Below are positions 40,566-58,822 of a stretch of 64,000 nucleotides of DNA, one piece after another. The notes under the pieces were generated by a model. It was not told the origin of the DNA. It saw only the letters and a program-made list of their open reading frames with translations, and searched no databases. The stretch is from a virus. The translations under genes and the position numbers were made by a program. The stretch is from positions 1-64,000 of IMG/VR virus record IMGVR_UViG_3300045135_000252; one strand, written 5' to 3'. The number at the start of each line of letters is the position of its first letter. Positions within the stretch are counted from its first letter, which is position 1.

Positions 40566-40802
40566 TTATTTGTCAGCGGCTAGTGAGCTTATTATTTCTT
40601 GTATCTGCTCCAGCTTGGCACGTGGGGCGTTAACCCCACAGAACCAGTTGTATACAGTCTGCCTTGTGACTTCCAAGTGAGCCGCTACGTCTGAGACGGG
40701 CACATCACGTTCGATGCAAACCCGCCCCAGTTGTACGCCCAACAAACGGTCATCGGCTTCTTTATTTAGCTCGATTAGCCTATTGCTGTAGCCATAGCTC
40801 AT
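40566..40802 (-). CDS. XRE-type helix-turn-helix protein
   Basis: 78 residues; residues 35-56 (VPVSDVAAHLEVTRQTVYNW) fit a helix-turn-helix of the Cro/CI family. Possible phage repressor or replication regulator. Its start overlaps the previous gene's stop (1 nt shared), so it is co-translated with the ssDNA-binding candidate rather than controlled alone. It is one of two candidates, with the gene at 49369, for binding the inverted repeats described here. Confidence 0.7.
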   Translation of the reverse strand: MSYGYSNRLIELNKEADDRLLGVQLGRVCIERDVPVSDVAAHLEVTRQTVYNWFCGVNAPRAKLEQIQEIISSLAADK

Positions 40803-46637: not shown

Positions 46638-46683
46638 ACTTCTGCTTGTCCGTTGGACGTTGCTTACTGCCTTTCCCTGCCAT
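46561..46683 (-). CDS. Small basic protein MAGKGSKQRPTD type, 40 aa
   Basis: 40 residues: MAGKGSKQRPTDKQKFEENF then DRIFGKKKKDE. Small proteins with MxGKGSxxRP...NFDRIFGKK are frequent in T7-like and marine podoviruses, where their function is unknown. Its ATG shares one base with the polymerase stop (TAATG) and it overlaps the next HTH gene in a different frame. Confidence 0.65.
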   Translation of the reverse strand: MAGKGSKQRPTDKQKFEENFDRIFGKKKKDESKETFRSND

Positions 46684-48509
46684 TACTTACAATCTCCATA
46701 TGAGTCGCCAACACCAGACTCGCAATCAAGCGGTAGCTCTAGTGCCCACTTGGGTCGCATCCGCATACACATCTCGACATATTCACGGGCTGTGTCAGCT
46801 TCGTCTTCCGGAACCAGACAGCATATCGCATCGTGTACCGTCATAACGACTTGGTACTTCTTTGCTACACGTAACATCTGCTCACCGATAACGATACGGG
46901 CTAGTGCTTGGCACACGTTTTCCACAACTTTTCCACCGTAGATACGGTTAGGTATAGTGGCTCGGCCTTTCTTGGTGTCGTACACCAATTCATCGCGTCC
47001 TTCCTCGTTGACTTGTCGTCTCAGATTTGGATACTTGATATAGAACCCGTTAGGGAGACGGATACCGTGTTTTCCCTCCACGGTTAAAGCTAACCCTCTC
47101 CCTAGCGGGGACGTTGCGTCTCGCTCGATAGCGTTTAGCGCATCACCTGCGGCACGCCAAAGCAAGGGAATCTGCGGGTAAGTCTCTCGGTATACTCTGA
47201 TAATCCGTTGACATTCATCTGCGGGTAAATCGACACCAAAGGTTTTTAACTGCGTACCAAACTTGGCCGCACCCATGCCGTAACCTGCACCAAGGATTGT
47301 TGTCTTGCCGACAAACCGTTCGTCCTTCGTGATCTCCTCCACTTCCTTGCCGTAGATGGCGGAAGCCATAATCTTGTACACATCTTCGCCTTTGTCGAAA
47401 GCGTCTACGAGATCGTCTTGCCCTGCTAGCCATGCGAGCGTCCTTGCTTCGATCTGTGATGAATCTGAATCAATCAGTTTATACCCAATCGGTGCTTCCA
47501 TCGCCATTTTGATAGCTGATGTACGGGGTAGGTTTTGCAGGTTTACTTTGTCGTCTCCGCCCCATCTACCTGTGTGCGCCGCATAGTAGCGTAGTGGTAT
47601 GGGCAACGTGCCGCGATCCGCGATCTCAATAAAGCGTTGAGTACGGGTTTCTTCAATCGTCGATTTGACACCAAGCCTCGCTGAGACAAGAGCTTGTACT
47701 GCTTCGTTCTCATGTTCTAAGAGCGCCTTGAACGCTTCATCCGCCTTTGCGAACGCAAACGTTTCTTTACCCGTTGTAGGACTAACCTTCGTTGGCGGCT
47801 CGACTCCGCAAGCTCTAAGAGCTTTCGCAAATTTATCATTGCTCATTAACTCCTCACGACTCTGAGTAATCATGCTCATCAGTCGGGCTTTGTTTTCTTT
47901 AACGTGCTGTAAGTGTTCTTGCAGTATGTGTTTGTTTAGCTCAATACAAGGCTTAGTAAACATACGTAGAGTGAGATCAATGAGATTAAGCTCACTAACA
48001 GGAAACCTTTTAATAAGGATTTCAAAAAGCGCATAGGTCAAGTCCACATCGTTAATACAGTATCCAGCATATGCTTGTAGCTGTGCCTTTGGAAAGTCCA
48101 GACGCTTTAGTCCTAACGCATTAACTACTTCAGTGCCCTTCTTACCTAAACCGTAATACTGGGTTAGTGCGGCCAGACTTCCACCTACCTCAATAGTGTG
48201 AAGCGCCCGTGCCATGCACAGCGTATCTGCTAACTTCTTTGGGTGTATATCGAAATGCCACGCCATAATTGCAAAGTCGAACATTCCGTTGTGGGCAAGA
48301 GCAATGTTGTCTTCCCACGGGAACTGATCTAGCCACCGCTGTGTTTGCGCCTTAGTTCCGCTAAACCACTCAGTTTCTTCGTCGTTCTTCTTTACAGCTA
48401 CGCCGATAACCTCAAAGCGAGGGTCACGTATGTATTCTTCTGTTGTTAGTTTGTTGAGTCCGTAGTCCTTCGCGTAATACGTCTCGAAATCAATCGTATA
48501 AATATCCAT
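46683..48509 (-). CDS. DNA polymerase, family A
   Basis: 608 residues. Proofreading exonuclease: DFET (D7, E9), HNGMFD (N74, D78) and YCINDVD (exo III). Polymerase: motif A SDSSQIEARTLA about residue 350, O-helix KTTILGAGYGMGAAKFG, motif C TVHDAICC with HD about residue 555. All catalytic residues are present, so it should replicate the phage genome with proofreading. Motif A reads DSDSSQIE rather than the usual DYSQIE. No 5'-nuclease domain, as in T7. Confidence 0.92.
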   Translation of the reverse strand: MDIYTIDFETYYAKDYGLNKLTTEEYIRDPRFEVIGVAVKKNDEETEWFSGTKAQTQRWLDQFPWEDNIALAHNGMFDFAIMAWHFDIHPKKLADTLCMARALHTIEVGGSLAALTQYYGLGKKGTEVVNALGLKRLDFPKAQLQAYAGYCINDVDLTYALFEILIKRFPVSELNLIDLTLRMFTKPCIELNKHILQEHLQHVKENKARLMSMITQSREELMSNDKFAKALRACGVEPPTKVSPTTGKETFAFAKADEAFKALLEHENEAVQALVSARLGVKSTIEETRTQRFIEIADRGTLPIPLRYYAAHTGRWGGDDKVNLQNLPRTSAIKMAMEAPIGYKLIDSDSSQIEARTLAWLAGQDDLVDAFDKGEDVYKIMASAIYGKEVEEITKDERFVGKTTILGAGYGMGAAKFGTQLKTFGVDLPADECQRIIRVYRETYPQIPLLWRAAGDALNAIERDATSPLGRGLALTVEGKHGIRLPNGFYIKYPNLRRQVNEEGRDELVYDTKKGRATIPNRIYGGKVVENVCQALARIVIGEQMLRVAKKYQVVMTVHDAICCLVPEDEADTAREYVEMCMRMRPKWALELPLDCESGVGDSYGDCK

Positions 48510-48534: not shown

Positions 48535-48963
48535 TTAGGTGTTGGGGTCGGAACTGTCATCAACCTTTGACTGGATGAAGTCAGAAGCGCATTTCGATAA
48601 GCTACGTGCGACTTCGGTAGTCGTGAAAGGTATTGTCCTTTGACTATTACCACCAAACTTAACCCCGCCCCTAGGTGTAGGGCGGTCTTGATCCCGCAAT
48701 AGTTCGTTCATGATGCGCTGAGTAGTCAGATCACCTTGGACATACATTAGTTTCTTGAATACTTCTCCGACTTCTTCGTCAGATAGGAAACCAAGCAGGA
48801 AGCACGGCTCTTTGCGAATGATCGCCTCGGCACGTTCCATAAGTGGTCTTACGATGAACTCCCAACGCTTTTCAGGGTTAAGCTGTGTAGCTCTGAACGT
48901 CAGGTCAAATTCTTCAGGATGGCTCTCCATACGAGCCATGAGAATCTCCATGCTCTTGTGCAT
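48535..48963 (-). CDS. Hypothetical protein, 142 aa
   Basis: 142 residues, helical (EKRWEFIVRPLMERAEAIIR, LGFLSDEEVGEVFKKLMYV). Preceded by GAGGTAATTACTT and overlapping the VRR-NUC gene by 50 nt. Not recognised; position between a resolvase-like nuclease and the polymerase suggests a replication accessory role. Confidence 0.5.
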   Translation of the reverse strand: MHKSMEILMARMESHPEEFDLTFRATQLNPEKRWEFIVRPLMERAEAIIRKEPCFLLGFLSDEEVGEVFKKLMYVQGDLTTQRIMNELLRDQDRPTPRGGVKFGGNSQRTIPFTTTEVARSLSKCASDFIQSKVDDSSDPNT

Positions 48964-49243
48964 AAGTAATTACCTCTAATACTTCAACGATATTATCTTC
49001 GTTTATAACTCTGGTTATGCCGCCCGCACTCCGTATGTCTCGCATCTCTTTTTCTTGTAGTGCAGTTGGCTTATTGCTACCTGCCTTGCACTCAATGCCG
49101 ATGAAGACACCGTTGCAACAACAGATAATGTCAGGCACACCGCTACGTCCATACCCGTGCGTAGCAGGGAAGAAGTAGTACACGCCATGTTCCTTGAGAA
49201 CCTTAACGATCTTGTCTTTTACTTTCTTTTCAGGTGTAGCCAT
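48914..49243 (-). CDS. VRR-NUC domain nuclease
   Basis: 109 residues. GVPDIICC (P37, D38) then GIECKAG (E51-C-K53) and ALQEKE (Q63) are the PD-(D/E)xK core of VRR-NUC proteins, structure-specific nucleases that cut branched DNA and are common in phages as Holliday-junction resolvase substitutes. First gene of the polymerase operon. Confidence 0.85.
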   Translation of the reverse strand: MATPEKKVKDKIVKVLKEHGVYYFFPATHGYGRSGVPDIICCCNGVFIGIECKAGSNKPTALQEKEMRDIRSAGGITRVINEDNIVEVLEVITYAQEHGDSHGSYGEPS

Positions 49244-49249
49244 AGGTCA

Positions 49250-49314
49250 ACGGTAACTGTCATTTTTGGCAATGTCAAATACTTTTTTGGGGTGATCCGA
49301 CTAACAAATGTTAG
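49250..49314 (-). promoter_or_regulatory. Candidate promoter with upstream inverted-repeat operator
   Basis: Minus-strand TTGACA (49273-49278) and a weak TACCGT (49250-49255) 17 nt on, close to the start at 49243. The inverted repeat CTAACAAATGTTAG at 49301-49314 lies 23 nt upstream of the -35 and extends to CCGACTAAC-AAAT-GTTAGTCCG. Would drive the VRR-NUC to SNF2 unit. The -10 is poor, so activation by a protein at the repeat is possible. Confidence 0.5.
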
Positions 49315-49339
49315 TCCGACCTGTTCGTTGTATAGACGT

Positions 49340-49363
49340 AAAAAAGCCCCGACTAGCGGGGCT
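49340..49363 (-). terminator. Rho-independent terminator of the AAA/VWA operon
   Basis: Arms AGCCCCG / CGGGGCT (49345-49363) with loop ACTAG, followed on the minus strand by T(6). Lies 5 nt beyond the stop codon of the RHH gene. Confidence 0.85.
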
Positions 49364-49368
49364 TCGAT

Positions 49369-49533
49369 TCACTGTTGTGATTCAGCGTAATTCGTAAGTA
49401 CAGTCCGAATCATCTTCGTGTAGTTAGGCCATTGCTTGTAGTAGTCAAGCACTTCCTGCGGTATACGCACGTTTACGTGTACCAGTGTAGGGGCTTTCTG
49501 TTTTCCGCGCCCCTTCCGTTTAGGTTGCTCCAT
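49369..49533 (-). CDS. Ribbon-helix-helix protein, 54 aa
   Basis: 54 residues, start overlapping the previous gene by 14 nt. A basic arm (MEQPKRKGRGKQKAP) precedes TLVHVNVRIPQEVLDYYKQW and TKMIRTVLTNYAESQQ: a beta-strand then two helices, the Arc/MetJ/BrnA fold. Such dimers bind inverted repeats in DNA, often controlling their own operon. It is the last gene of the operon with the inverted repeats at 54171, 52946 and 51293, so it is a natural candidate for their ligand. No toxin gene is adjacent, so an antitoxin role is not supported. Confidence 0.75.
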   Translation of the reverse strand: MEQPKRKGRGKQKAPTLVHVNVRIPQEVLDYYKQWPNYTKMIRTVLTNYAESQQ

Positions 49534-50401
49534 TGTCTTCCTCCAAGCTGACGTAATAATGTGTTTCGGTTTCGCGGTAGCCCACGTTAATTAGGGTTTG
49601 CCCATTCTCTATGAGCTTCAACATACCGACCCTGCGTTTTAGCAAGTCGGGTAGTGTAGCATTTTCGTACGTGTAGAATTGGCCGTCGTCTGTTTCCACG
49701 GCATACGTGTTCCCATGAATTAGAACAACCGCCCCTTTCTTTTCTTTCTCGCATTTCTCAATGCTCCTCTTAATCTCGCTATCCTCGTAGGCTTCTCTTA
49801 GTCGCTGTGTTTGTTTGTAGCCATGCTCTTCAGCTATCCGCATATACTTTTCCAAGTCACTCATCAGATAGTCAGACAGGTGATGACAAAACTTCTGGAA
49901 GTGGTTGTGCCACTCACCAGACGCGCAATACGCATTAGTGCCCACGCTTCTACGTACTGTGCTACGTGCTTCGCTCATCAACTCCTTCAGGTCTTTCGGT
50001 CTGAAGTTCTTGAGGATTAGCTTCTTCGCTTTGTCTAGCTTCGTAGTCTTATCCGCGTTGCCACGCTCACGCTTACCCCATATGCGATGGTTGCTGATTG
50101 TGTAGCAGGGTTTGTGGCCGTAGTAGTCACGACCAATATCGCCAAGCTCTTCGCCATCACAATACACAACCCATCGGTGCGGGTAATACTTCTCGTCAGC
50201 ACACCCCGCATTGGTAGCACGTAGGTGATAGCCTCGGAACTCCCACTTAGGGAACTGCTTCGCTAATGGTAAGAGCAAGTCACCCATGAACTTATCCATG
50301 TGCAACTTGTCCATGATGTTGTTGTCAGCAAGTGTCTGATCGGACAGCATCAAGACCACGTTCGGGTACTCACTTAGAAATTGATGTTTGTTTTGCGACA
50401 T
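49520..50401 (-). CDS. Hypothetical protein, 293 aa
   Basis: 293 residues from the ATG at 50401 (MSQNKHQFLSEYP), preceded by GAGGTAAAT; the frame extends to 50419. Contains HHLSDYLMSDLEKYMRIAEE, a long charged helix, then beta-rich KGAVVLIHGNTYAVETDDGQ and HYYVSLEED. No known motif. Encoded between the DUF3150-like protein and the RHH protein. Confidence 0.55.
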   Translation of the reverse strand: MSQNKHQFLSEYPNVVLMLSDQTLADNNIMDKLHMDKFMGDLLLPLAKQFPKWEFRGYHLRATNAGCADEKYYPHRWVVYCDGEELGDIGRDYYGHKPCYTISNHRIWGKRERGNADKTTKLDKAKKLILKNFRPKDLKELMSEARSTVRRSVGTNAYCASGEWHNHFQKFCHHLSDYLMSDLEKYMRIAEEHGYKQTQRLREAYEDSEIKRSIEKCEKEKKGAVVLIHGNTYAVETDDGQFYTYENATLPDLLKRRVGMLKLIENGQTLINVGYRETETHYYVSLEEDNGAT

Positions 50402-50408
50402 ATTTACC

Positions 50409-51260
50409 TCACCACTCAAACTGACCTAGTACGCTATCCACTTTCGCTTTTAGCTCACCCCGGGCATACTCGGAGTCTTTGATTACATCTACGTCAGTAG
50501 CCATTAGTGCTACTTCCAGTTGGCGTCTCGCTGACTCTAAGTCTGGGTCATTGTTCACATTCAAGTGACTGAGCAGACCGCACAAGTCCTGCGCGTTGGT
50601 GATAAACGTATCGTGGAATCTGCGTTTCTTCTCATCTGGTGCATCAGTCAGCTTCTCGCTCATACCCTTGAGTGTCTTGTGCAACCGACCCCATGCGTCC
50701 TTCATCGCATCGTTGACCCGTGTACTGAAGTCAGCTTCGTACTGCTCGCGTAGCTCGTTGAGTTCTTCGCTTGCTACGTCAAGCACAAAGTGTCCAGAGT
50801 CAGGGACAGGGCTAAACGTGTAGCGGTAAGCAAACTTCTCGGCTACCTCCTCAACGTGTGGGTAATCGCTAGCGTTGAACAGCGAACCCAAGTAGTTCTG
50901 ACTGATCTGCACCAGTTGTGGATAATCTATTAGGAACTGCGAGACCATTGAATCGAACTTGGCCTTGCGATCATTAAGCTCCTGCTTGTAGTCCATGAAC
51001 ATACTCGTTGGTAGCATACGCGCACCAGAGTTTGCCCACGGTAACGTTTTAACGTTGTGCCATAAGCGACAACCTGCCGCGAAATCGGCAATCTCTTTCC
51101 GTTGGCTTGAACCTGCCATCAGATTCTTACGCACTTGGGCGGCTTTATCAGTGGCACAGTTTTGTGTAATCACTACGTCAGTAGCGTTCTTGTCCAGTTT
51201 GTTTGCAGTCCAAACTGAAATGTTATGCTCTACGAGCAATGCTCTTGCTGTAATACTCAT
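50409..51260 (-). CDS. DUF3150-like protein
   Basis: 283 residues, mainly helical, with SVWTANKLDKNATD, AGCRLWHNVKTLPWANSGARMLP and a C-terminal helical bundle. The N-terminal pattern and its company (AAA ATPase and VWA protein in the same operon) fit DUF3150, a phage/plasmid family often found with CobS/MoxR-like ATPases. The family assignment is from memory and should be treated as probable. Leader: repeat at 51293-51306, then GAGGTAACTACC. Confidence 0.55.
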   Translation of the reverse strand: MSITARALLVEHNISVWTANKLDKNATDVVITQNCATDKAAQVRKNLMAGSSQRKEIADFAAGCRLWHNVKTLPWANSGARMLPTSMFMDYKQELNDRKAKFDSMVSQFLIDYPQLVQISQNYLGSLFNASDYPHVEEVAEKFAYRYTFSPVPDSGHFVLDVASEELNELREQYEADFSTRVNDAMKDAWGRLHKTLKGMSEKLTDAPDEKKRRFHDTFITNAQDLCGLLSHLNVNNDPDLESARRQLEVALMATDVDVIKDSEYARGELKAKVDSVLGQFEW

Positions 51261-51292
51261 TGGTAGTTACCTCTATTTAGTTATAAGTCTGA

Positions 51293-51306
51293 CTAACAAA
51301 TGTTAG
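51293..51306 (-). promoter_or_regulatory. Inverted repeat, stop codon within
   Basis: CTAACAAATGTTAG on the plus strand, extended to GACTAAC-AAAT-GTTAGTC (perfect 7+7). Read on the minus strand it supplies ACT AAC ATT TGT TAG, the last codons and stop of the 67-residue gene; the next start is 33 nt on. No promoter is visible here. Confidence 0.7.
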
Positions 51307-51496
51307 TCTCATCGTTTTGGATTATTTTATGTCTGACCGCAATGCGATCCCCTAGGTCAACGACCTCTGCGCGTCCTTCGCCCACTTCAACAATGGAGTG
51401 AACAGCCCGACGCAATCTGCTTTTTGTTTTTACTAAAGCAGCTATAAACATGACGTTTGCCGATAGCGACAACGACAGTATGATTGCCATCTCCAT
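51293..51496 (-). CDS. Small membrane protein, 67 aa
   Basis: 67 residues. One N-terminal hydrophobic segment (AIILSLSLSANVMFIAALV, residues 4-22), then a basic/acidic cytoplasmic part (TKSRLRRAVHSIVEVGEG). Single-span protein made within the AAA/VWA operon, possibly anchoring the complex. Its last four residues (TNIC) come from the inverted repeat. Confidence 0.6.
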   Translation of the reverse strand: MEMAIILSLSLSANVMFIAALVKTKSRLRRAVHSIVEVGEGRAEVVDLGDRIAVRHKIIQNDETNIC

Positions 51497-51741
51497 CAGT
51501 TTTCCTCCGGTTTGCCCGCCAACTTCGCCATGTTGTATTGGCGATCTGTCAGCATCTTCATCTGAATTGGTTCGCCCAATTCGTCTTGGTTGTACACATG
51601 GTACGTAGTCACACGGTCATCTCCGTACCCTTTGCGCTTCTCCTCGTGAATCTCCGCGTCACGTATCGTGTCCCAGATAATCTGCGCTTGGTCGGCACTA
51701 AGCACGTATGACTTGTACCCAATCTCAAATAAGAATCTCAT
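51496..51741 (-). CDS. Hypothetical protein, 81 aa
   Basis: 81 residues: MRFLFEIGYKSYVLSADQAQ, IIWDTIRDAEIHEEKRKGYG, DDRVTTYHVYNQDEL. Short alpha/beta protein. Start overlaps the VWA gene stop and its stop abuts the membrane-protein start. No function known. Confidence 0.55.
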   Translation of the reverse strand: MRFLFEIGYKSYVLSADQAQIIWDTIRDAEIHEEKRKGYGDDRVTTYHVYNQDELGEPIQMKMLTDRQYNMAKLAGKPEEN

Positions 51742-52952
51742 TCTATTCCGTCCTTTATGTTTACTGACTTACCCACAGGCGCAGTATGATCTGATGTGAT
51801 AACCCACAAGATCGGCTTCGCCCACTCATTACCCCAGTTATGTATGTACCCATCGGTCAGCATGATGATGCAGTCGGGGTCAATGTTCTTGTCCTGCATA
51901 TAGCTGTGTACGCACGTAGGGTCAGTGCCCCCACCACCTCTCGGTTTGGTTGAGTCTTCTAGCGTAGTCAGAGTCGCAGAGTCGTACTCCTCGTGCCCCG
52001 CTACTTCGTGATCCCAGTAGATCAAGTCCACCTTCTCAGGGTTCACCGTCTCGGCTATCGCTTTGACTTCGGACAGGAACACGCTTATCTCGTGTTGCCC
52101 AATCGAACCTGATGTGTCTACGCCTACCACGATATGTCCAACACGTTCGCCAATGAGCGATGGCATATACATATCCATACTCAGATAGCGTCTGTTGATC
52201 CTTCGCCACGAGCTTGCGTCTTTCGCATTACAGGTAGCGTTGACAAACTCACGCAGTACCTCGCGCCAGTCCACCTGTGGTTCTAGCAAGTCACCAAGTT
52301 CACGGCACATATTGCCCGCGCCTTTACCCGCTAGTTTCTGTGCAGTCATCTGGCCTTGGCGTAGTGCTTGGTCAACCTCGCGCTCTAGCTCTTTGACTTC
52401 CTCTTGGGTTAGCTCTTGCGCTCCTTCCCAGTCATGCTCGTCAAAGCCACCGCCTTCACCATCTTGTCCCTGCCCGCCGGAACCACTACCTTCCTGTTGC
52501 TCCTGCTTCAGTAGGTCGAAGACTTGTTTAGTGTTAAGACCTTTGTACTTTGTATCCAACAGCCCGTAGATTTCACCGTCTTTGCGTGGTATCGCAATGG
52601 TCTGCTCGTTCGGGTCTGTGTTGTGCAGTATCAGGTTAATCACGTAGTCACAAGCCATGTTCGCTAGACGGGCGTCCTCGTCATGTAACTTCTTCCAGAT
52701 AATCAAGTGACGAAACGCTTTGTGCAGATTCTCGTGTAGCACAACAAACATAAGCTCCTTGTCGGTTAGCCCGTCAACAAACTCAGTGCCGTATATCTCG
52801 TCACGCCCATTGGTCGCGGCAGTTGGGAAGCCATCACGTACTTCGGTCTTGCCAACCATCATGATGCCAGACCACAACGCAAACTCAGGTTTCCGCATCA
52901 GTGTGATCTTGGCCTTCTTGACCCGTCTTTCAATTTTCGATCTGTCTAACAT
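51738..52952 (-). CDS. VWA domain protein with HExxH site (DUF2201-like)
   Basis: 404 residues. Residues 73-77 HENLH form a metallopeptidase-type zinc motif in a helical N-terminal domain; a Gly/Gln/Glu-rich linker follows (about 155-180); the C-terminal domain is a von Willebrand A fold with MIDAS DTSGS (279-283) and LTDGY near 372. This domain order is that of DUF2201 proteins, partners of MoxR/CbbQ AAA ATPases. The start ATG lies inside the inverted repeat (52946-52959). With the ATPase at 53068 it probably forms a chaperone- or protease-like machine; target unknown. Confidence 0.8.
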   Translation of the reverse strand: MLDRSKIERRVKKAKITLMRKPEFALWSGIMMVGKTEVRDGFPTAATNGRDEIYGTEFVDGLTDKELMFVVLHENLHKAFRHLIIWKKLHDEDARLANMACDYVINLILHNTDPNEQTIAIPRKDGEIYGLLDTKYKGLNTKQVFDLLKQEQQEGSGSGGQGQDGEGGGFDEHDWEGAQELTQEEVKELEREVDQALRQGQMTAQKLAGKGAGNMCRELGDLLEPQVDWREVLREFVNATCNAKDASSWRRINRRYLSMDMYMPSLIGERVGHIVVGVDTSGSIGQHEISVFLSEVKAIAETVNPEKVDLIYWDHEVAGHEEYDSATLTTLEDSTKPRGGGGTDPTCVHSYMQDKNIDPDCIIMLTDGYIHNWGNEWAKPILWVITSDHTAPVGKSVNIKDGIE

Positions 52953-52959
52953 TTGTTAG
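52946..52959 (-). promoter_or_regulatory. Inverted repeat fusing stop and start codons
   Basis: On the minus strand CTAACAAATGTTAG: in one frame AAC AAA TGT TAG ends the 41-residue zinc protein, in another AAATG TTA G starts the VWA gene. The RNA could fold as CUAAC-AAAU-GUUAG with the start codon in loop and stem. No promoter nearby. Confidence 0.7.
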
Positions 52960-53071
52960 TCCTACCTCTTGGTTTTTGCTTACCTTTGAGCCAACACTTG
53001 GCACACATCGCGCCATAGTTGTCTCGCACTACGGGCTTATCCCCGCACCACTTGCACTTATCTTCGCTCAC
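52946..53071 (-). CDS. Mini zinc-ribbon protein, 41 aa
   Basis: 41 residues from a GTG at 53071 that overlaps the ATPase stop (TGTGA): MSEDKCKWCGDKPVVRDNYG then AMCAKCWLKG. C6, C9, C23, C26 form a CxxC-CxxC zinc ribbon. Sits between ATPase and VWA genes, with both ends overlapping, so it is likely co-translated as part of the same system. Confidence 0.65.
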   Translation of the reverse strand: MSEDKCKWCGDKPVVRDNYGAMCAKCWLKGKQKPRGRTNKC

Positions 53072-54132
53072 AGTAAGTCCTCGTTCTTCTGTACCCAGTC
53101 AGCAAACGCTGATGAACTGAACGCCACTGATTGTTTTTGTGGATTCTTCGCTATGTTGATGCAGAAGCACGCTTGCCACTCAGGTTCAAACCGTCCCAGA
53201 TACTCCATGAACGGTGAGATGTTCTGCTTATCAATCTTGGTAATCGCACCGAACACCAGTACAGCACAAGCACCTGCGCTAGTAGGTACATCAGCCGTCT
53301 TGGGTGACTTGGTGATCGACTCCCACGTTGGTAGCTGATCCTGATACTCGACATAGGCTTGCATATCTCGCGCACCTGCTTCGCCAATAGCACCAGTCAA
53401 AGCGGCAATCAGCGACTCTTGGTCTATACGATCCCGTCCTTTCAGTACGTGCGAGGCTCGCTCCAAGGAACGAGGCGATACAAACGCTGTCTGTACTTTC
53501 TTAGGGTTAAAGATGTACGGGTTATTCTCTTGCCCCTCGTCAGTGTATGACGCTAGTGCGTGTGGGAACTGATGCACCCACGACATGACGACAGGCTCAA
53601 TGTCATTGTTGACCGCCCACTCAAGCCACTCCTCAGAGCTAGGCTTTCTAACGTGTAGCGGAATAATACGGTTGCGTGTATGCGCTTTAAGTACGTCACC
53701 AACCCCATCACTTGAGAGGTTGCCGGTCAAAAAGATAATTGACTCTGGGTGTACTGACGTATCACCAAGGCGCGGGTTAGATGACTCGAGCAGCGGGTGC
53801 AACATATTCTTCACCGGCTCGGGAGCTTTCGTAAACTCGTCAAGCATCATCAGCACAGGCTTACCCGTGTGCATACCGAACCGCCCATTAGGGAAGTATT
53901 CGGTTATACCTAACTCACGATTTGCAATCGGCATAGCGATGTCGCCAAGATCCAACTGCGAGCAGTCCATGTAAGACTTGAAATGCTCAGGCTTGCTGTC
54001 TCCGATCAGCTTCATGATGGACGACTTACCGATCCCCGGCTCACCCTGTAAGAAGTATCTTAGCTCTGGTGAAAGAGTGATAAGCGTTGCCGCTTGCTTC
54101 AAAGAAACAGATGTTCCGAATGTAATAGACAT
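53068..54132 (-). CDS. MoxR/CbbQ-type AAA+ ATPase
   Basis: 354 residues from the ATG at 54132 (MSITFGTSVSLKQA), preceded by GAGGTAACTAAA; the open frame continues to 54177. Walker A GEPGIGKS (30-37), Walker B LMMLDEF (D98-E99), sensor LTGNLSS, arginine finger region AHTRNRI. Small single-domain AAA+ of this type act with VWA partners (here 51738) to remodel proteins. First gene of the operon, highest expected yield. Confidence 0.85.
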   Translation of the reverse strand: MSITFGTSVSLKQAATLITLSPELRYFLQGEPGIGKSSIMKLIGDSKPEHFKSYMDCSQLDLGDIAMPIANRELGITEYFPNGRFGMHTGKPVLMMLDEFTKAPEPVKNMLHPLLESSNPRLGDTSVHPESIIFLTGNLSSDGVGDVLKAHTRNRIIPLHVRKPSSEEWLEWAVNNDIEPVVMSWVHQFPHALASYTDEGQENNPYIFNPKKVQTAFVSPRSLERASHVLKGRDRIDQESLIAALTGAIGEAGARDMQAYVEYQDQLPTWESITKSPKTADVPTSAGACAVLVFGAITKIDKQNISPFMEYLGRFEPEWQACFCINIAKNPQKQSVAFSSSAFADWVQKNEDLL

Positions 54133-54170
54133 TTTAGTTACCTCTAATGTAATAGTTGTTAATGGTCTGG

Positions 54171-54184
54171 CTAACAAATGTTAG
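54171..54184 (-). promoter_or_regulatory. Inverted repeat in leader of the AAA/VWA operon
   Basis: CTAACAAATGTTAG (plus strand), between the promoter at 54229 and the start at 54132, i.e. about 45-55 nt downstream of the -10. A protein bound here would block elongation or initiation. Confidence 0.7.
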
Positions 54185-54228
54185 TGCGACCCCACTAGCG
54201 TATGTGTTCATTCCGCGCCAGTGTGTAT

Positions 54229-54257
54229 ATTGTACCACAATTATAGTCTTGTGTCAA
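54229..54257 (-). promoter_or_regulatory. Sigma70-type promoter of the AAA/VWA operon
   Basis: TTGACA (54252-54257), 17 nt, TACAAT (54229-54234) on the minus strand. The -10 is one arm of ATTGT-ACC-ACAAT (54229-54241), an inverted repeat that recurs at other early promoters. Confidence 0.85.
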
Positions 54258-54261
54258 GTTT

Positions 54262-55281
54262 CTAGCGAAAGAACTTCTCGTTCGCTGTGCTTGGTGTTTT
54301 GCCTCTAGGCACTTCCTTATCGTAGAAAACCTCCTCCCTGTGTAGCCGTAAGATAAAGTTATCAAACGCTTTCAGTGCTTGGTTAGGCGTACAGATCACG
54401 TTGTCGCTATGCCAACCACCGTTGTAACCACCGCACCATGCGGCCAATAGCCATAGCTTGTGAGACATAACGAGATCGCCCTCGTTCGCTAGACTCACCA
54501 TCTCCACAATGTCATCTTGCGAGCCAAGCCCAACGTCCAGACTCATCTTCGGCAACTTGCGTTGTATCTCCCAGTACGAACCGCCCCACTGTGGCTCTCG
54601 TGATACCTCCAGATCGAACAACTCAACGAACTCACTGAACGCATACAGTCCGTCATCGCGTAGCTTCGACATACCTTTGATGTAGTCATAGATGCGCTGA
54701 TACTTTTTACGCACCGTCTTGGCGACACCTCGGTTTACTGCTTTCTGCGTAAGCGTAGGCGGGTTCACGTATTGCAATTTGTAGTCCCGTTTGTATTGCG
54801 GGTAGTCATGATTCTTCACCCACTTCAGTATTGATGGCTTTTTGCGGAACCGCTCTAGTAACGGTAGCCACTCATTATCTAAGCACACCCACAAGTGATT
54901 CTTCTCTCGGCAGAACTGTACACCTAACAGGCTAGTCAGTTGCTCGTACACGCAGTTGTACAGATACGCCTGTATGTGTATCTCACCGTTCGGCTTCCAC
55001 TTCACAATGTAGTCATGCTCATTGTTTGGCTCACCGCTACTCGACCACCCCTCAAAGTACACAACGTCATCATTCGCTAGGCGTTTGATCTGCATATACT
55101 TGCGCGAGCGCAGGTGTATCGGCTTCTGGTTTGTGCCTCGGATAGGCACTACTTGCTCCTCGTGTGTTAGAGCCTTCATATAGGTATCTAACGTAGGAAA
55201 CATATTGCATTTAAACATCATCTTTCTCCACATTCCGTCCGGTGCTATGTACCACTGTGCCATTGTCGGTCTCCCTAACAT
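54262..55281 (-). CDS. Hypothetical protein, 334-339 aa
   Basis: Either 339 residues from the ATG within the inverted repeat at 55281, or 333 from the ATG at 55263 (MAQWYIAPDGMWRKMM), which has the better RBS (GGGAG, 7 nt). Rich in Trp and Tyr, with an alpha/beta N-terminal half (EQVVPIRGTNQKPIHLRSRK) and basic centre (KKYQRIYDYIKGMSKLRD). No known motif found. Last gene of the operon behind the promoter at 56486. Confidence 0.6.
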   Translation of the reverse strand: MLGRPTMAQWYIAPDGMWRKMMFKCNMFPTLDTYMKALTHEEQVVPIRGTNQKPIHLRSRKYMQIKRLANDDVVYFEGWSSSGEPNNEHDYIVKWKPNGEIHIQAYLYNCVYEQLTSLLGVQFCREKNHLWVCLDNEWLPLLERFRKKPSILKWVKNHDYPQYKRDYKLQYVNPPTLTQKAVNRGVAKTVRKKYQRIYDYIKGMSKLRDDGLYAFSEFVELFDLEVSREPQWGGSYWEIQRKLPKMSLDVGLGSQDDIVEMVSLANEGDLVMSHKLWLLAAWCGGYNGGWHSDNVICTPNQALKAFDNFILRLHREEVFYDKEVPRGKTPSTANEKFFR

Positions 55282-55390
55282 TTGTTAGTCCTACCCTCTT
55301 GGCGCGAACAGCTTCGCGCTTTGCGAGGAACTCTTTTGCCTTCTGGCGATCAAGCACTAGGTTGTGCTTACTTCCTTTTGACTTGTGCAT
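55211..55390 (-). CDS. Small basic protein, 59 aa
   Basis: 59 residues, MHKSKGSKHNLVLDRQKAKE, FLAKREAVRAKRVGLTNVRE, basic and helical. It reads through the inverted repeat (LTNV), overlapping the next gene by about 71 nt, so it may be less certain than its neighbours. Start overlaps the preceding gene. Confidence 0.45.
   Translation of the reverse strand: MHKSKGSKHNLVLDRQKAKEFLAKREAVRAKRVGLTNVRETDNGTVVHSTGRNVEKDDV
55275..55288 (-). promoter_or_regulatory. Inverted repeat over the start region of 54262
   Basis: Minus strand CTAACAAATGTTAG, preceded by GAGGGTAGGA, nearly the same leader as at 52946 (GAGGTAGGA). The ATG in it could start the gene at 54262; the alternative start is 18 nt further, with GGGAG partly inside the repeat. 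Confidence 0.7.
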
Positions 55391-55541
55391 CAGCTTCCAT
55401 CTCCTTCTGCTTATCAGTCACAAAATTCACCGCGATACGATAGATGTGCCACGGTATCTCACTGTCTGGCTGTGTTGATTGGTCAATCACCCAATGACAC
55501 AACTCAAACAAATCCCCTAACTGCTTATCATCAACAGTCAT
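55368..55541 (-). CDS. Small protein, 57 aa
   Basis: 57 residues: MTVDDKQLGDLFELCHWVID, QSTQPDSEIPWHIYRIAVNF. Helical, acidic start, basic end. Its ATG shares one base with the previous stop (TAATG), after GAGGAGAG. Unrecognised. Confidence 0.55.
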   Translation of the reverse strand: MTVDDKQLGDLFELCHWVIDQSTQPDSEIPWHIYRIAVNFVTDKQKEMEADAQVKRK

Positions 55542-55756
55542 TACTTCTCTCCTCGCAACAGCTTCTGCGCTGTGTCCAGTTCTTTCTCAAGACGCAGTAT
55601 CCGGTCATCGCGTTGGCTTAGTGCCTTCTTCGCGTCCATCACAGAGCATTGCAACTGAAGTATGCACAACTCGCGTTCCCACGAGTCATACTGCTCCTTC
55701 GTCATTATCGCTAGCGCAATGTCTAGCTTGGTATCTGTTGGGATATCTTCACCCAT
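55541..55756 (-). CDS. Coiled-coil small protein, 71 aa
   Basis: 71 residues (MGEDIPTDTKLDIALAIMTK, EQYDSWERELCILQLQ ... RILRLEKELDTAQKLL). The C-terminal half is a predicted coiled coil. Start overlaps the stop of the 53-residue gene upstream (GATGGGTGA). Function unknown. Confidence 0.6.
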   Translation of the reverse strand: MGEDIPTDTKLDIALAIMTKEQYDSWERELCILQLQCSVMDAKKALSQRDDRILRLEKELDTAQKLLRGEK

Positions 55757-55910
55757 CGTTTGACTCCTCTATTTGTATGGCAACAAACCCATGAAAGTCG
55801 TATCCGTCTTCCGTGGCTTCAAAGACAAGAATCCAGTCCTTATCGCTGTATTTCTTACATACAGCGGATATCTCATCTGCCCACTTGTCTACTTCGCTCA
55901 TCTCACTCAC
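55749..55910 (-). CDS. Small protein, 53 aa
   Basis: 53 residues from a GTG at 55910 with AAAGGAGG 8 nt upstream: MSEMSEVDKWADEISAVCKK, YSDKDWILVFEATEDGYDFH. Compact alpha/beta, acidic. The GTG overlaps the stop of the DksA-like gene. Unknown function. Confidence 0.55.
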   Translation of the reverse strand: MSEMSEVDKWADEISAVCKKYSDKDWILVFEATEDGYDFHGFVAIQIEESNDG

Positions 55911-56151
55911 GGTGAAAGCCTCCTTTGTTGTTGATGCCCTTCAGGTCTTCAAGGTTGGTGAAGAGCATATAGTTTGATTTGTGCATAGGAGCGATGGTTC
56001 GCACAGTATTCCTAGCTTGCTTGTCACCGCATACTAGGCAGGTTGTGTAGCCAAGCTCTACGCGCTTAGGGGGAAGTATGGTCTCGCCACACTCCCGACA
56101 CTCATGTACACCACAGAACCCTGCGGAGCAGTGTTCGCCTCTGACTAACAT
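55903..56151 (-). CDS. DksA/TraR-type zinc-finger protein
   Basis: 82 residues. CRECGETILPPKRVELGYTT then CLVCGDKQ is the C4 zinc finger of the DksA/TraR family (CxxCG-I-x-x-R-x-x-x-x-x-x-x-x-C-x-x-C). The coiled-coil part that reaches the RNA-polymerase secondary channel in DksA is absent or very short. It may still bind polymerase. Its start ATG (56149-56151) is inside the inverted repeat at 56145. Confidence 0.75.
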   Translation of the reverse strand: MLVRGEHCSAGFCGVHECRECGETILPPKRVELGYTTCLVCGDKQARNTVRTIAPMHKSNYMLFTNLEDLKGINNKGGFHRE

Positions 56152-56158
56152 TTGTTAG
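56145..56158 (-). promoter_or_regulatory. Inverted repeat fusing stop and start codons
   Basis: Minus strand AAC TAA CAA ATG TTA G: TAA ends the 78-residue gene and ATG starts the DksA-like gene, both inside CTAACAAATGTTAG, behind AAGAGGAGC. Confidence 0.75.
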
Positions 56159-56391
56159 TTGCTCCTCTTATCGCTTCCGTCTGCATTGAAACCATGATGC
56201 TTGCGTATTGCTTGAGTCATCGGGTTGGTACTGCGGTAGCAGGTATAAGAGCCACGCTGTGGTGGGCGTTCAGTATGCAACTGCATCTGCATGAAGATGT
56301 ACTGCGCCATCAGGCGTGAGTGTTCGTTGCCATTCTTAACGTGCCATGCTCGCTGGCGGAGCAGACGTTGTGCATCACGTGATAAGGACAT
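56155..56391 (-). CDS. Small basic protein, 78 aa, first of the operon
   Basis: 78 residues, strongly basic (SLSRDAQRLLRQRAWHVKNG, PPQRGSYTCYRSTNPMTQAI). RBS GAGGTAACTACT. Being first behind a near-consensus promoter it should be abundant early; small basic first-expressed phage proteins often act on host enzymes or nucleic acids, but nothing identifies this one. Confidence 0.6.
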   Translation of the reverse strand: MSLSRDAQRLLRQRAWHVKNGNEHSRLMAQYIFMQMQLHTERPPQRGSYTCYRSTNPMTQAIRKHHGFNADGSDKRSN

Positions 56392-56428
56392 AGTAGTTAC
56401 CTCGTATTGTTGTGTTTTTGCATACCGA

Positions 56429-56442
56429 CTAACAAATGTTAG
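56429..56442 (-). promoter_or_regulatory. Inverted repeat in early operon leader
   Basis: Perfect GACTAAC-AAAT-GTTAGTC (core 56429-56442), between the promoter at 56486 and the start at 56391. Confidence 0.7.
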
Positions 56443-56485
56443 TCAGATGGGGTTTGAGTATGTACGCGCCTCGCCCCATTTATAT

Positions 56486-56514
56486 ATTGTACCACAAAGT
56501 AACTATTGTGTCAA
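56486..56514 (-). promoter_or_regulatory. Sigma70-type early promoter
   Basis: Minus strand TTGACA (56509-56514), 17 nt, TACAAT (56486-56491), with ATTGT-ACC-ACAAA over the -10 as at 54229. Drives 56155 to 54262. Confidence 0.85.
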
Positions 56515-56519
56515 GTTTT

Positions 56520-56856
56520 CTGTTATGTATTGTTGTAAAGTTATAAAACACTACCCTATTGTTGTAAAAAAATACAACAATGCAAAATCCAGTAATGACG
56601 CGGTGTAGAGGTATGAAAATAGGTGTATTGTTGTATTGTTTCGTTTTTAAATAAATACATTTCCTCTGGGCAGTTTTGCTCTCTTTGCATCTGCATAAGT
56701 GCGTCCTATGGAATCCCTATATAAAGTGTTTTTAAAACGCAACTTTACAACAAAGCATACTTTACTTAAAAATCAATAACTTAGCGTATAACAATACAAA
56801 AACGGTTTTACAACAATACAACTTTGTACCACATTGTTGTGTTTTAGGGGGTTTGA
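56520..56856. repeat. AT-rich region with TACAACAA/TTGTTGTA repeats
   Basis: No gene. About eight copies of TTGTTGTA or its complement TACAACAA, some in pairs (56528-56539 and 56557-56568 both TATTGTTGTAAA; 56571, 56625-56640, 56745, 56808-56820, 56833), in both directions, in strongly A+T-rich DNA with further ATTGT-type sequence at 56823-56835. Arrangement is that of iterons at a replication origin or of a multi-site regulator; which of the two cannot be told from sequence. Confidence 0.6.
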
Positions 56857-57008
56857 CTAACAAATGTTAGGCTTAACACATTAAATGCAATTGGCTCTAC
56901 GCGGCTGCGAGAACTGTCATTCTGGCTAACATCGGTTAGGTGCGTAGGTACAAGGTGCGACCCATTCGGGCATAAGCTCAACGCGACTGTGAGAACTGTC
57001 ATCGCAGG
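56857..57008. repeat. Operators and 33-bp direct repeats
   Basis: No gene. Contains CTAACAAATGTTAG (56857-56870), a variant CTAAC-ATCG-GTTAG (56926-56939), and two copies of a repeat GGCTC-ACGCG-C-TG-GAGAACTGTCAT (56893-56925 and 56974-57008). The repeat recurs twice at 57736-57800. Confidence 0.65.
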
Positions 57009-57016
57009 GTCGGGAC

Positions 57017-57045
57017 AAAAAAAGGGCGACTCCGAAGAGCCGCCC
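57017..57045 (-). terminator. Rho-independent terminator, UUCG loop
   Basis: GGGCGGCTC-TTCG-GAGTCGCCC then T(7) on the minus strand, 7 nt beyond the stop of 57052. Near-ideal. Confidence 0.92.
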
Positions 57046-57051
57046 ATGTGG

Positions 57052-57615
57052 TTATTTCTTTAAACCTAGCTTAACCAGATCCACTTTCTGTGGGTCGTGG
57101 CCAATCTTAAAGATTACTTGTGACAAGAGATCCTGTATCTCTGCTTGCCTTTTAGTTTGTGCTTCCATGCGAGCATATTCAGACCACCGTGGATGGAGTG
57201 ACACCAACAACCGTTCCTCTGGCGTTTTTTCCTTGCCACTGTTTGGTGCGCGAACGCCCTCGGCAAGCGCTCGCCCTGCGTTCTTAATCCTTGCCCAGTA
57301 AGTGGAAGGATTAGATAAATCCTTGCCGGTCTTGGCTTTAAATGCAGAGCGCAATGCCTTGTAGTAAGGACTCTGGAAGTTATTCCATAATCCTTTTTCC
57401 TCTTTATCAGTGGAGTCCTTGGCGTTCTTGACGTCGTACCACTTGAAGCCAGATGCCTTATCAACACAGCCAAAAAACTTATTCAGTTGTTCGGCAGTAT
57501 CGTCGTCGGACAGAGTTGATGAAATCGCAATTTCCGCGTTAGCGATCAATGCGTCCTGTACTGCTTTTGTAGTTGGCTTTTTAGAGACAGCCACAGTCTT
57601 TGAGATGTTTTCCAT
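57052..57615 (-). CDS. Early protein, paralogue A
   Basis: 187 residues from the ATG at 57615 (MENISKTVAVSKKPT), preceded by AGGAGT; the frame continues to 57735 through the promoter and is not used. Shares with the gene at 58114 the start MENI-K-VA-SKK, a central WY-V, NPST-W-R-K, the block HPRWSEYARMEA and the end GHDPQKVDL-LGLKK. Own promoter, RBS and strong terminator imply a highly expressed early product. No known family recognised; predicted soluble, helical. Confidence 0.75.
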   Translation of the reverse strand: MENISKTVAVSKKPTTKAVQDALIANAEIAISSTLSDDDTAEQLNKFFGCVDKASGFKWYDVKNAKDSTDKEEKGLWNNFQSPYYKALRSAFKAKTGKDLSNPSTYWARIKNAGRALAEGVRAPNSGKEKTPEERLLVSLHPRWSEYARMEAQTKRQAEIQDLLSQVIFKIGHDPQKVDLVKLGLKK

Positions 57616-57676
57616 TTTGGAAACTCCTATTGCAATAGTCAGAACCGGAGTGGCGCTGACGGTTATATAAGAACAT

Positions 57677-57726
57677 ATTGTGGTACAAAAAACAGAGTTA
57701 GAACCACAGAGACTAACAATCGTTAG
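57677..57726 (-). promoter_or_regulatory. Promoter/operator region of 57052
   Basis: In minus-strand order: CTAAC-GATT-GTTAG (57713-57726), the 14-bp box TGGTTCTAACTCTG (57693-57706), the inverted repeat TTTGTACCACAAT (57677-57689), then TATATA as likely -10. The box and repeat are almost identical to those ahead of 58114. No good -35, so an activator is possible. Confidence 0.6.
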
Positions 57727-57735
57727 GCAGACCAC

Positions 57736-57800
57736 TGGCTCAACGCGACAAGTGGAACTATCATCAGTGGCTCAGCGCGACATGGAGAACTGTCATCACG
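57736..57800. repeat. Two tandem 33-bp direct repeats
   Basis: GGCTCAACGCGACAAGTGGA... and GGCTCAGCGCGACATGGAGA..., both continuing (A)ACT(A/G)TCATCA-GG, head to tail. Same family as the copies at 56893 and 56974. Between the terminator at 57812 and the operator at 57713. Confidence 0.65.
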
Positions 57801-57811
57801 GAGTGAGGACG

Positions 57812-57840
57812 AAAAAAAGGGCAGAGCCGAAGCCCTGCCC
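57812..57840 (-). terminator. Rho-independent terminator, UUCG loop
   Basis: GGGCAGGGC-TTCG-GCTCTGCCC then T(7) on the minus strand, 6 nt beyond the stop of 57847. Confidence 0.92.
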
Positions 57841-57846
57841 GAGTGG

Positions 57847-58065
57847 TTAAGAGTGAGAGTTAAGTGCTTGGCGTGTTCGATCAAGATCATCGTAGCACTG
57901 TTGAATTGCTTGAATCTTGATGTTGGCCGAGTCGATCAATGATTGATCGTGAGGTGTGTATGTTCGCAACGATGTTATGTCATGTAGTTCGTTGCGTAGT
58001 TTCTGAATCTCAAACTGAAGATCCACGATCTGAACAAGAAGGCGTATACCTTTTCCAATATCCAT
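57847..58065 (-). CDS. Small coiled-coil protein, 72 aa
   Basis: 72 residues from the ATG at 58065 (MDIGKGIRLLVQIVDLQFEI), with AGGAGT 9 nt upstream; the longer frame to 58095 runs into the terminator hairpin and is not used. Two helices with leucine/isoleucine heptads separated by TYTPHD. Lies between two terminators, so it depends on readthrough from 58114 or its own weak promoter. Function unknown. Confidence 0.65.
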   Translation of the reverse strand: MDIGKGIRLLVQIVDLQFEIQKLRNELHDITSLRTYTPHDQSLIDSANIKIQAIQQCYDDLDRTRQALNSHS

Positions 58066-58078
58066 AGTGTTGACTCCT

Positions 58079-58106
58079 AAAAAGAAGCCCCGCACTTGGC
58101 GGGGCT
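58079..58106 (-). terminator. Terminator after paralogue B
   Basis: AGCCCCGC-loop-GCGGGGCT (58086-58106) then TTCTTTTT on the minus strand. The T-run is broken, allowing some readthrough into 57847. Confidence 0.85.
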
Positions 58107-58113
58107 AGTGTGG

Positions 58114-58701
58114 TTACTTCTTCAAGCCAAGGGCTTTCAGATCAACCTTCTGAGGATCATGGCCACAAGCGCGGATAACACCGGCCAGAGCGTCCATGAC
58201 TTTCTTGTCACGTTCAGTCAGCGACTCCATGCGAGCATACTCTGCCCAACGTGGGTGAGTGTCGCGTAGTGTGCGCTCTGAAGGAGTGAGATCCTTCTTC
58301 TCACCAAGGCGAAGCGTACCTTCGATTTGCTCCTTGGCTTTACCCTTGACGCGATTCCAAACTGTCGAAGGGTTGGTGTACCGCACCTTCTTCAGCTTCT
58401 CACCGCGTACACCTTCCGCTTCAGCGCGTGCCCGAGCCTTGGCGTGGAGTGCGACATATAGTTCATCGCGCACCTTCCTGATGAGCTTACCCGCATCATC
58501 GGTAGCCTTATCGACATTCTCGACAGCGTACCAATTATGCGCTCCCTTCTTCGCACCGAAGAAGTCATTGATGACCAGAGCAAGCGAAAGCTCCGAAGCA
58601 TCAGCACCAACAGTAGCCGAAGCGGTTTCGACGATCTGAGATTGAACGTCAGCGAAGGTTAGCTTTTTAGAGCTAGCAACAGCTTTAGTGATATTTTCCA
58701 T
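58114..58701 (-). CDS. Early protein, paralogue B
   Basis: 195 residues, MENITKAVASSKKLTFADVQ, preceded by GAGGTAACTACTC. Paralogue of 57052: shared NWYAVENV/KWYDVKNA, YTNPSTVWNRVK/LSNPSTYWARIK, THPRWAEYARMESL and GHDPQKVDLKALGLKK. B is richer in G+C and acid/basic residues. First minus-strand gene after the divergent region, thus probably the first early protein made. Function unknown; such early pairs often act on host functions. Confidence 0.75.
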   Translation of the reverse strand: MENITKAVASSKKLTFADVQSQIVETASATVGADASELSLALVINDFFGAKKGAHNWYAVENVDKATDDAGKLIRKVRDELYVALHAKARARAEAEGVRGEKLKKVRYTNPSTVWNRVKGKAKEQIEGTLRLGEKKDLTPSERTLRDTHPRWAEYARMESLTERDKKVMDALAGVIRACGHDPQKVDLKALGLKK

Positions 58702-58763
58702 GAGTAGTTACCTCTGTTATGGAATACCGAAGCGGGATTGCTTCGATGGGTTTATAGTCTCAT

Positions 58764-58822
58764 ATTGTGGTACAAATATCAGAGTTAGAACCATATAAGG
58801 GGGTAGGGCTAACAAATGTTAG
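58764..58822 (-). promoter_or_regulatory. Promoter/operator region of 58114
   Basis: Minus-strand order: CTAAC-ATTT-GTTAG (58809-58822), TGGTTCTAACTCTG (58780-58793), ATTTGTACCACAAT (58764-58776), then TATAAA. Same order and spacing as at 57677, showing duplication of gene plus control region. Confidence 0.65.

Follow-up and report, generated by a model that had tools for sequence, protein, structure and literature searches.

Dispersed palindromes in the early genes of a group of uncultured phages and their co-variation with a protein family, E1

What reads a set of near-identical palindromes scattered through the early genes of a phage, are they read as DNA or as RNA, and with what effect on the genes around them? 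The question is raised by positions 1 to 64,000 (the window) of the 73,626-bp IMG/VR virus record IMGVR_UViG_3300045135_000252, where eleven exact CTAAC-N4-GTTAG sites all lie within 49301–58822. In this phage and its relatives, the protein E1, product of the first early gene, tracks the spacing of the sites in its sequence better than any other phage gene does. It is very probable that E1 binds the sites, and the comparisons suggest an early-gene switch which resembles known operator arrays and uses a new protein family.

The array in the window and in relatives

Chance, set beforehand by a sequence-only reading of the window as the refuting test, accounts for 0.04 exact sites (maximum 1 in 100 dinucleotide shuffles). 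That reading had seen no copy elsewhere in the window, and a scan of the whole record finds none outside 49301–58822 either. The eleven copies it reported are all in place, with 4-bp cores as it described them: AAAT or ATTT in nine, ATCG at 56926 and AATC at 57713. Its 18-bp repeat unit has to be shortened to an invariant 14 bp, the perfect GACTAAC..GTTAGTC palindrome being found only at 49301, 51293 and 56429 (3 of 11). The sites are palindromic and have no single orientation to transcription: AAAT and ATTT cores each occur on the sense strand.

The sites (Table 1) lie among the upstream members of the minus-strand early genes, between the DNA polymerase (46683–48509) and the terminase (59119 onward), in a block that includes genes for a DUF2201 VWA/metallopeptidase (51738–52952), an ATPase (53068–54135) and an Hjc-like nuclease (48914–49243). 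All eleven fall in this early block, as had been claimed. Several also overlap stop or start codons, and the minus-strand ATGs at 52952, 55281 and 56151 fall within CTAACAAATGTTAG. The AT-rich intergenic stretch 56500–56845, between the sites at 56429 and 56857, contains many TTGTTGTA and TACAACAATA repeats in both orientations and looks like an iteron-type origin or the region of a second regulator.

Table 1. Palindromic sites, promoters and E1 genes in the window
Feature	Position	Strand	Context
Palindromic site	49301–49314		Upstream of Hjc-like nuclease gene
Palindromic site	51293–51306		5' of gene 50409–51260
Palindromic site	52946–52959		Overlaps start codon of VWA gene; position kept in relatives
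Palindromic site	54171–54184		ATPase gene leader; 56.5 bp downstream of the -10 start of promoter 54229–54257
Palindromic site	55275–55288		At start of gene 54262–55281
Palindromic site	56145–56158		Stop/start junction of genes 56155–56391 and 55903–56151
Palindromic site	56429–56442		Leader of gene 56155–56391; 55.5 bp downstream of the -10 start of promoter 56486–56514
Palindromic site	56857–56870		At edge of AT-rich intergenic region
Palindromic site	56926–56939		ATCG core
Palindromic site	57713–57726		AATC core; upstream of E1-B
Palindromic site	58809–58822		Upstream of E1-A
Sigma-70 promoter	54229–54257	-	TTGACA-17-TACAAT, extended -10
Sigma-70 promoter	56486–56514	-	TTGACA-17-TACAAT, extended -10
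E1-A	58114–58701	-	First early gene, 195 aa; proposed site-binding protein
E1-B	57052–57615	-	Paralogue of E1-A; start placed at internal ATG (MENISK)

The array is not peculiar to the window phage; it is shared by a large uncultured group of relatives. The motif search of related phages that the sequence-only reading had proposed was carried out de novo, for repeated palindromes, in each of 80 IMG/VR contigs fetched with the VWA protein. Most contigs that reach the early block carry a multi-copy palindrome of their own in the same block as the window, with about 8–24 copies in most well-covered relatives. The types are CTAACA-N1/N2/N3-TGTTAG, with the arm variants ATAACA, GTAACA, TTAACA and CTGACA; CTAACA..TGTTAG is the conserved part, and the bases flanking CTAAC..GTTAG vary. 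The close relative L066 has a 19-bp palindrome, GTTGTTACA-T-TGTAACAAC. At the start of the VWA gene the place of the site is kept among relatives while its sequence has changed. A literature search found no paper describing this array. L173, a contig of 17.6 kb that belongs to a betaproteobacterial metagenome-assembled genome and has a 47% identical VWA protein, offers a hint about the host.

E1 and the type of site

The E1 proteins of the compared genomes group as one family in a profile search, with sizes of about 155–230 aa. In a gene-by-gene comparison of the window (G000), L006 (G001) and L066 (G021), most shared early genes are 60–95% identical in every pair. What stands out from these is the first early gene with its tandem paralogue, in whose place L066 has distant homologues: the window E1 is 75% identical to that of L006, which has the same palindrome, and about 31% identical to that of L066, which has a different one. 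In several core genes, VWA (0.89 vs 0.78) and ATPase (0.93 vs 0.86) among them, the window is closer to L066 than to L006. Separately, gene 49520–50419 diverges fast (58% and 44%) between phages whose gene just upstream is more than 90% identical.

Co-variation was scored in 19 genomes with E1, setting the identity within each protein family against spacer class after regression on core-gene identity. E1 is associated with site spacing at z = 5.8 and the next family at 2.8, and the spacer label has to change 4 times on the E1 tree vs 7 times on the VWA tree. Two residues follow the spacer. Across two member alignments, the 56 proteins with the pair [YF]G at E1 residues 27–28 (L018 numbering) all come from phages whose spacer is 1 bp. 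Of the 15 proteins that lack it, 14 go with spacers of 2 or 3 bp and one, that of L048, with a spacer of 1 bp (56:0 vs 1:14). In L233, an E1 of the YG-like type that lacks the pair accompanies 15 two-bp sites. When contigs were retrieved by E1 only, with a narrower E1 alignment as query (the window protein alone gave no matches), all 80 of 80 loci have the palindrome.

The two regulators suggested by the sequence-only reading do not survive this comparison. The helix-turn-helix (HTH) protein (HTH_23) at 40566–40802 is 87% identical between the window and L066 despite their different palindromes (z = 0.3), and the ribbon-helix-helix-like protein at 49369–49533 is 72% identical in the same pair (z = -0.6). 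A host LexA-like factor, which has a similar half-site geometry, is not supported, as the sites differ among close relatives together with E1.

Several observations weigh against E1 as the binder. L048 (G013) has an N2-type E1 yet 1-bp sites, some genomes contain mixed spacings, and 8 site-bearing contigs, some of them truncated, have no detectable E1. Counts across related phages are not independent, and the weight is placed on the tree counts and on the cases of L066, L233 and L064. A search of Pfam and PHROG with E1 gives no credible match even at E ≤ 10 and no repressor or HTH profile, LacI-type HTH included. The E1 AlphaFold model is all helical (pLDDT 87), and a second model, of an N1-type member, has a lower confidence of 79; Foldseek finds nothing significant for either in PDB or BFVD. 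A known repressor family was thus rejected for E1 on all four resources. The lack of a recognisable DNA-binding fold, together with the weaker associations of family 7 (z 2.8) and VWA (z 2.6), would suit another protein, of phage or host, that binds the sites, with E1 co-varying through linkage to that protein or antagonism of it. This is improbable: the co-variation of every other family is far below that of E1, the spacer is tracked by two E1 residues, and sites occur in all 80 contigs having E1. Within the E1 model, the conserved stretch NPS-x-x-W-x-R-V lies in a helix after a short turn and looks like a recognition helix.

What E1 adds is a link, drawn from co-variation alone, between a widespread, undescribed phage protein family and its probable DNA sites. 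The link extends to two residues that follow site spacing, and it makes direct binding tests possible for uncultured phages. Two E1 members searched against 50,697 phage records find no credible homologue, one giving no match and the other only E about 0.9. Four further phages encode small proteins at or close to the E1 slot (L079 4547–5125, L080 2411–2932, L081 391–918, L082 2055–2591) that have no clear E1 alignment, with a weak homology signal for those of L080–L082. These phages bear other palindromes, ATACTGTC-N-GACAGTAT (that of L079) and TTAACA-N2-TGTTAA.

Further small elements lie around the E1 genes. A 27-nt repeat, GCTCNACGCGNCTGNGAGAACTGTCAT, follows them in the window (56894–56920, 56976–57002 and near 57740–57800), and 'AGTTCTC' elements resembling it follow E1 in relatives. 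TTGTGGTACAA, elsewhere part of the extended -10 promoter, lies close to each of the two E1 genes (57678–57688 and 58765–58775), on the plus strand and without a -35 box. In L034 (1141), L052 (5629) and L050 (79), the site just 3' of E1 is part of a terminator-like hairpin stem, for example GCCCTAACAATGTTAGGGCTTTTTT.

Conservation as DNA and the RNA alternative

On the transcribed strand the sites are found in leaders and over start codons, and a variable spacer would be a variable loop; the palindromes might therefore act as RNA hairpins in early transcripts, in translation control, processing or anti-termination. The imperfect copies speak to this. Counts over 57 contigs give 529 exact sites and 139 with one mismatch; permuted arms would yield 2.6 of the latter. 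On the transcribed strand, changes that would leave a G-U pair number 8, vs 10 in the mirror-image class, and are thus not in excess; the commonest mismatches, C>A and G>T, disrupt pairing. RNA hairpin function was rejected on these mismatch types, and anti-termination through RNA is disfavoured. Sites also lie deep within genes and upstream of promoters, and an Rfam search with the site gives no match, all of which makes a hairpin very unlikely.

The copy within the ATPase gene is informative on the same point. Phages with 1-bp spacing mostly write Ser-Asn-Ile-Val as TCT-AAC-ATT-GTT, which forms the site. In G010, G015 and G018, with spacers of 2, 2 and 3, the identical residues are written AGC-AAC-ATT/C-GTC/G and no site is formed. 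The codon difference is synonymous and points to selection acting on the DNA site itself. Together these patterns indicate that the palindromes are DNA sites whose in-gene copies are kept by synonymous codon choice.

Many copies in a short region could also be produced by a mobile repeat, or by chance accumulation without function. The probability left to this is negligible, and the reading is already refuted by the chance, position and codon results: only 0.04 sites are expected, the site is kept at orthologous positions while its sequence differs by lineage, and selection within genes is synonymous.

Promoters and a proposed early-gene switch

Many early promoters of the family are of the sigma-70 type with an extended -10, near TTGACT-17-TATAAT preceded by TTGTGG. 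Among 997 distinct sites, the promoter-near ones have two peaks, 50–90 bp before and 40–80 bp after the -10 hexamer begins, with few sites in the interval. Across the family the peaks lie at about +52 and -78 if transcription is taken to start 12 bp after the -10 start. A flanking site is present at 188 of the 252 predicted promoters in the blocks: downstream only at 112, upstream only at 52 (164 with one site only) and on both sides at 24, where the centres are 109–154 bp apart; 64 have none. Other sites mark gene junctions and some lie inside genes. The promoter of E1 itself has sites in most relatives.

On balance this placement favours a mechanism in which E1 dimers bind a dispersed operator array and repress early transcription. 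We infer all three elements, E1 itself as binder, its dimeric state and repression as the effect, from sequence comparison, and repression, taken as the outcome of E1 binding, is only somewhat favoured. The proposed steps are as follows: (i) host RNA polymerase with sigma-70 would start the early genes from the extended -10 promoters; (ii) each palindrome would be bound by a dimer of E1 (E1-A or its paralogue E1-B); (iii) accumulating E1 would fill sites that flank promoters, at about 50 bp on the downstream side, at about 80 bp on the upstream side, or both, as well as those at gene junctions and within genes; (iv) early transcription would be shut down by promoter looping, by a block of the elongating polymerase, or by both. 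Sites at its own promoter would make E1 self-limiting. Two features sit less well with this scheme, namely that the E1 promoter of the window is not a clear sigma-70 promoter and that for most sites no promoter can be recognised close by.

The dedicated phage regulator of several early operons that the sequence-only reading had proposed finds good support in the conservation and co-variation among relatives; of the roles it allowed, anti-termination and activation alone are disfavoured, the latter because most promoter-linked sites are downstream of the promoter. E1 might still bind the sites as an activator, for which positions near -78 and the 52 promoters with an upstream site only are suitable, or as a DNA-organising factor in replication, segregation or packaging of the early block, for which the in-gene sites and the AT-rich repeat region beside E1 are suitable. 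Such a role is unlikely. The 112 promoters with a downstream site only fit activation poorly, the sites are concentrated at promoters and gene starts, and both the -35 and the extended -10 boxes of the early promoters are good. Repression by looping or roadblock fits better than activation because the sites spare the promoter and lie in the path of the polymerase, at junctions and in genes.

A search of 16 records, possibly fragments, found no Phage_integrase (PF00589); serine integrase and partition genes were not searched. Because no Phage_integrase was found, an early-gene off-switch is a simpler reading than a lysogeny repressor. A bolder and rather doubtful extension is that E1 has a new DNA-binding fold, that its dimers, in strictly lytic phages, bring the entire early block into loops or silence it, and that the palindrome types are immunity-like specificity groups; if true, a co-infecting phage of the same type would be silenced and one of another type would escape. 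A further question is why phages in which no integrase was detected should keep, and rapidly diversify, something so like an immunity operator array.

Known systems share parts of this arrangement. In phiC31, many palindromic copies near early promoters are bound by one phage repressor, a description that the present array resembles; unlike it, phiC31 is temperate and has an integrase. The stoperators of Cluster A mycobacteriophage L5 are asymmetric sites, and the repressor that binds them, in phages that are temperate, is a monomer with two domains (PMC9283540, PMC6550527). There, as here, many sites are dispersed in phage genes, at junctions and near the repressor gene (here that of the proposed repressor E1), and the motif diverges among relatives, tracking repressor and immunity specificity in Cluster A and E1 in this group. 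The present sites are palindromic rather than asymmetric and of one orientation, they are confined to the early block, the search for Phage_integrase was negative, and no known family matches E1. By analogy, the array appears to work most like the Cluster A stoperator system, even though its sites are not asymmetric. The GalR operators OE and OI of Escherichia coli flank the gal promoter at -60.5 and +53.5, 113 bp apart (PMC4693257), comparable to the palindromes at about -78 and +52 on both sides of promoters here. E1 differs from GalR in having no LacI/GalR match and no known inducer, most promoters have only one flanking site, and the sites per genome are far more numerous.

Palindrome searches of KPP25 and Rollin, relatives by DNA polymerase, found none. 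The cultured Rhizobium phage RHph_TM3_14A (L171, MN988472) has 25 copies of TTACC-N5/6-GGTAA at 12719–45691 of its record, mostly through early genes. The spacer there is longer and different, E1 is not detectable, no homology of E1 to the first early protein was detected, and the array may be only analogous; the ATPase/metallopeptidase/PolA/SNF2 gene set of this phage is similar.

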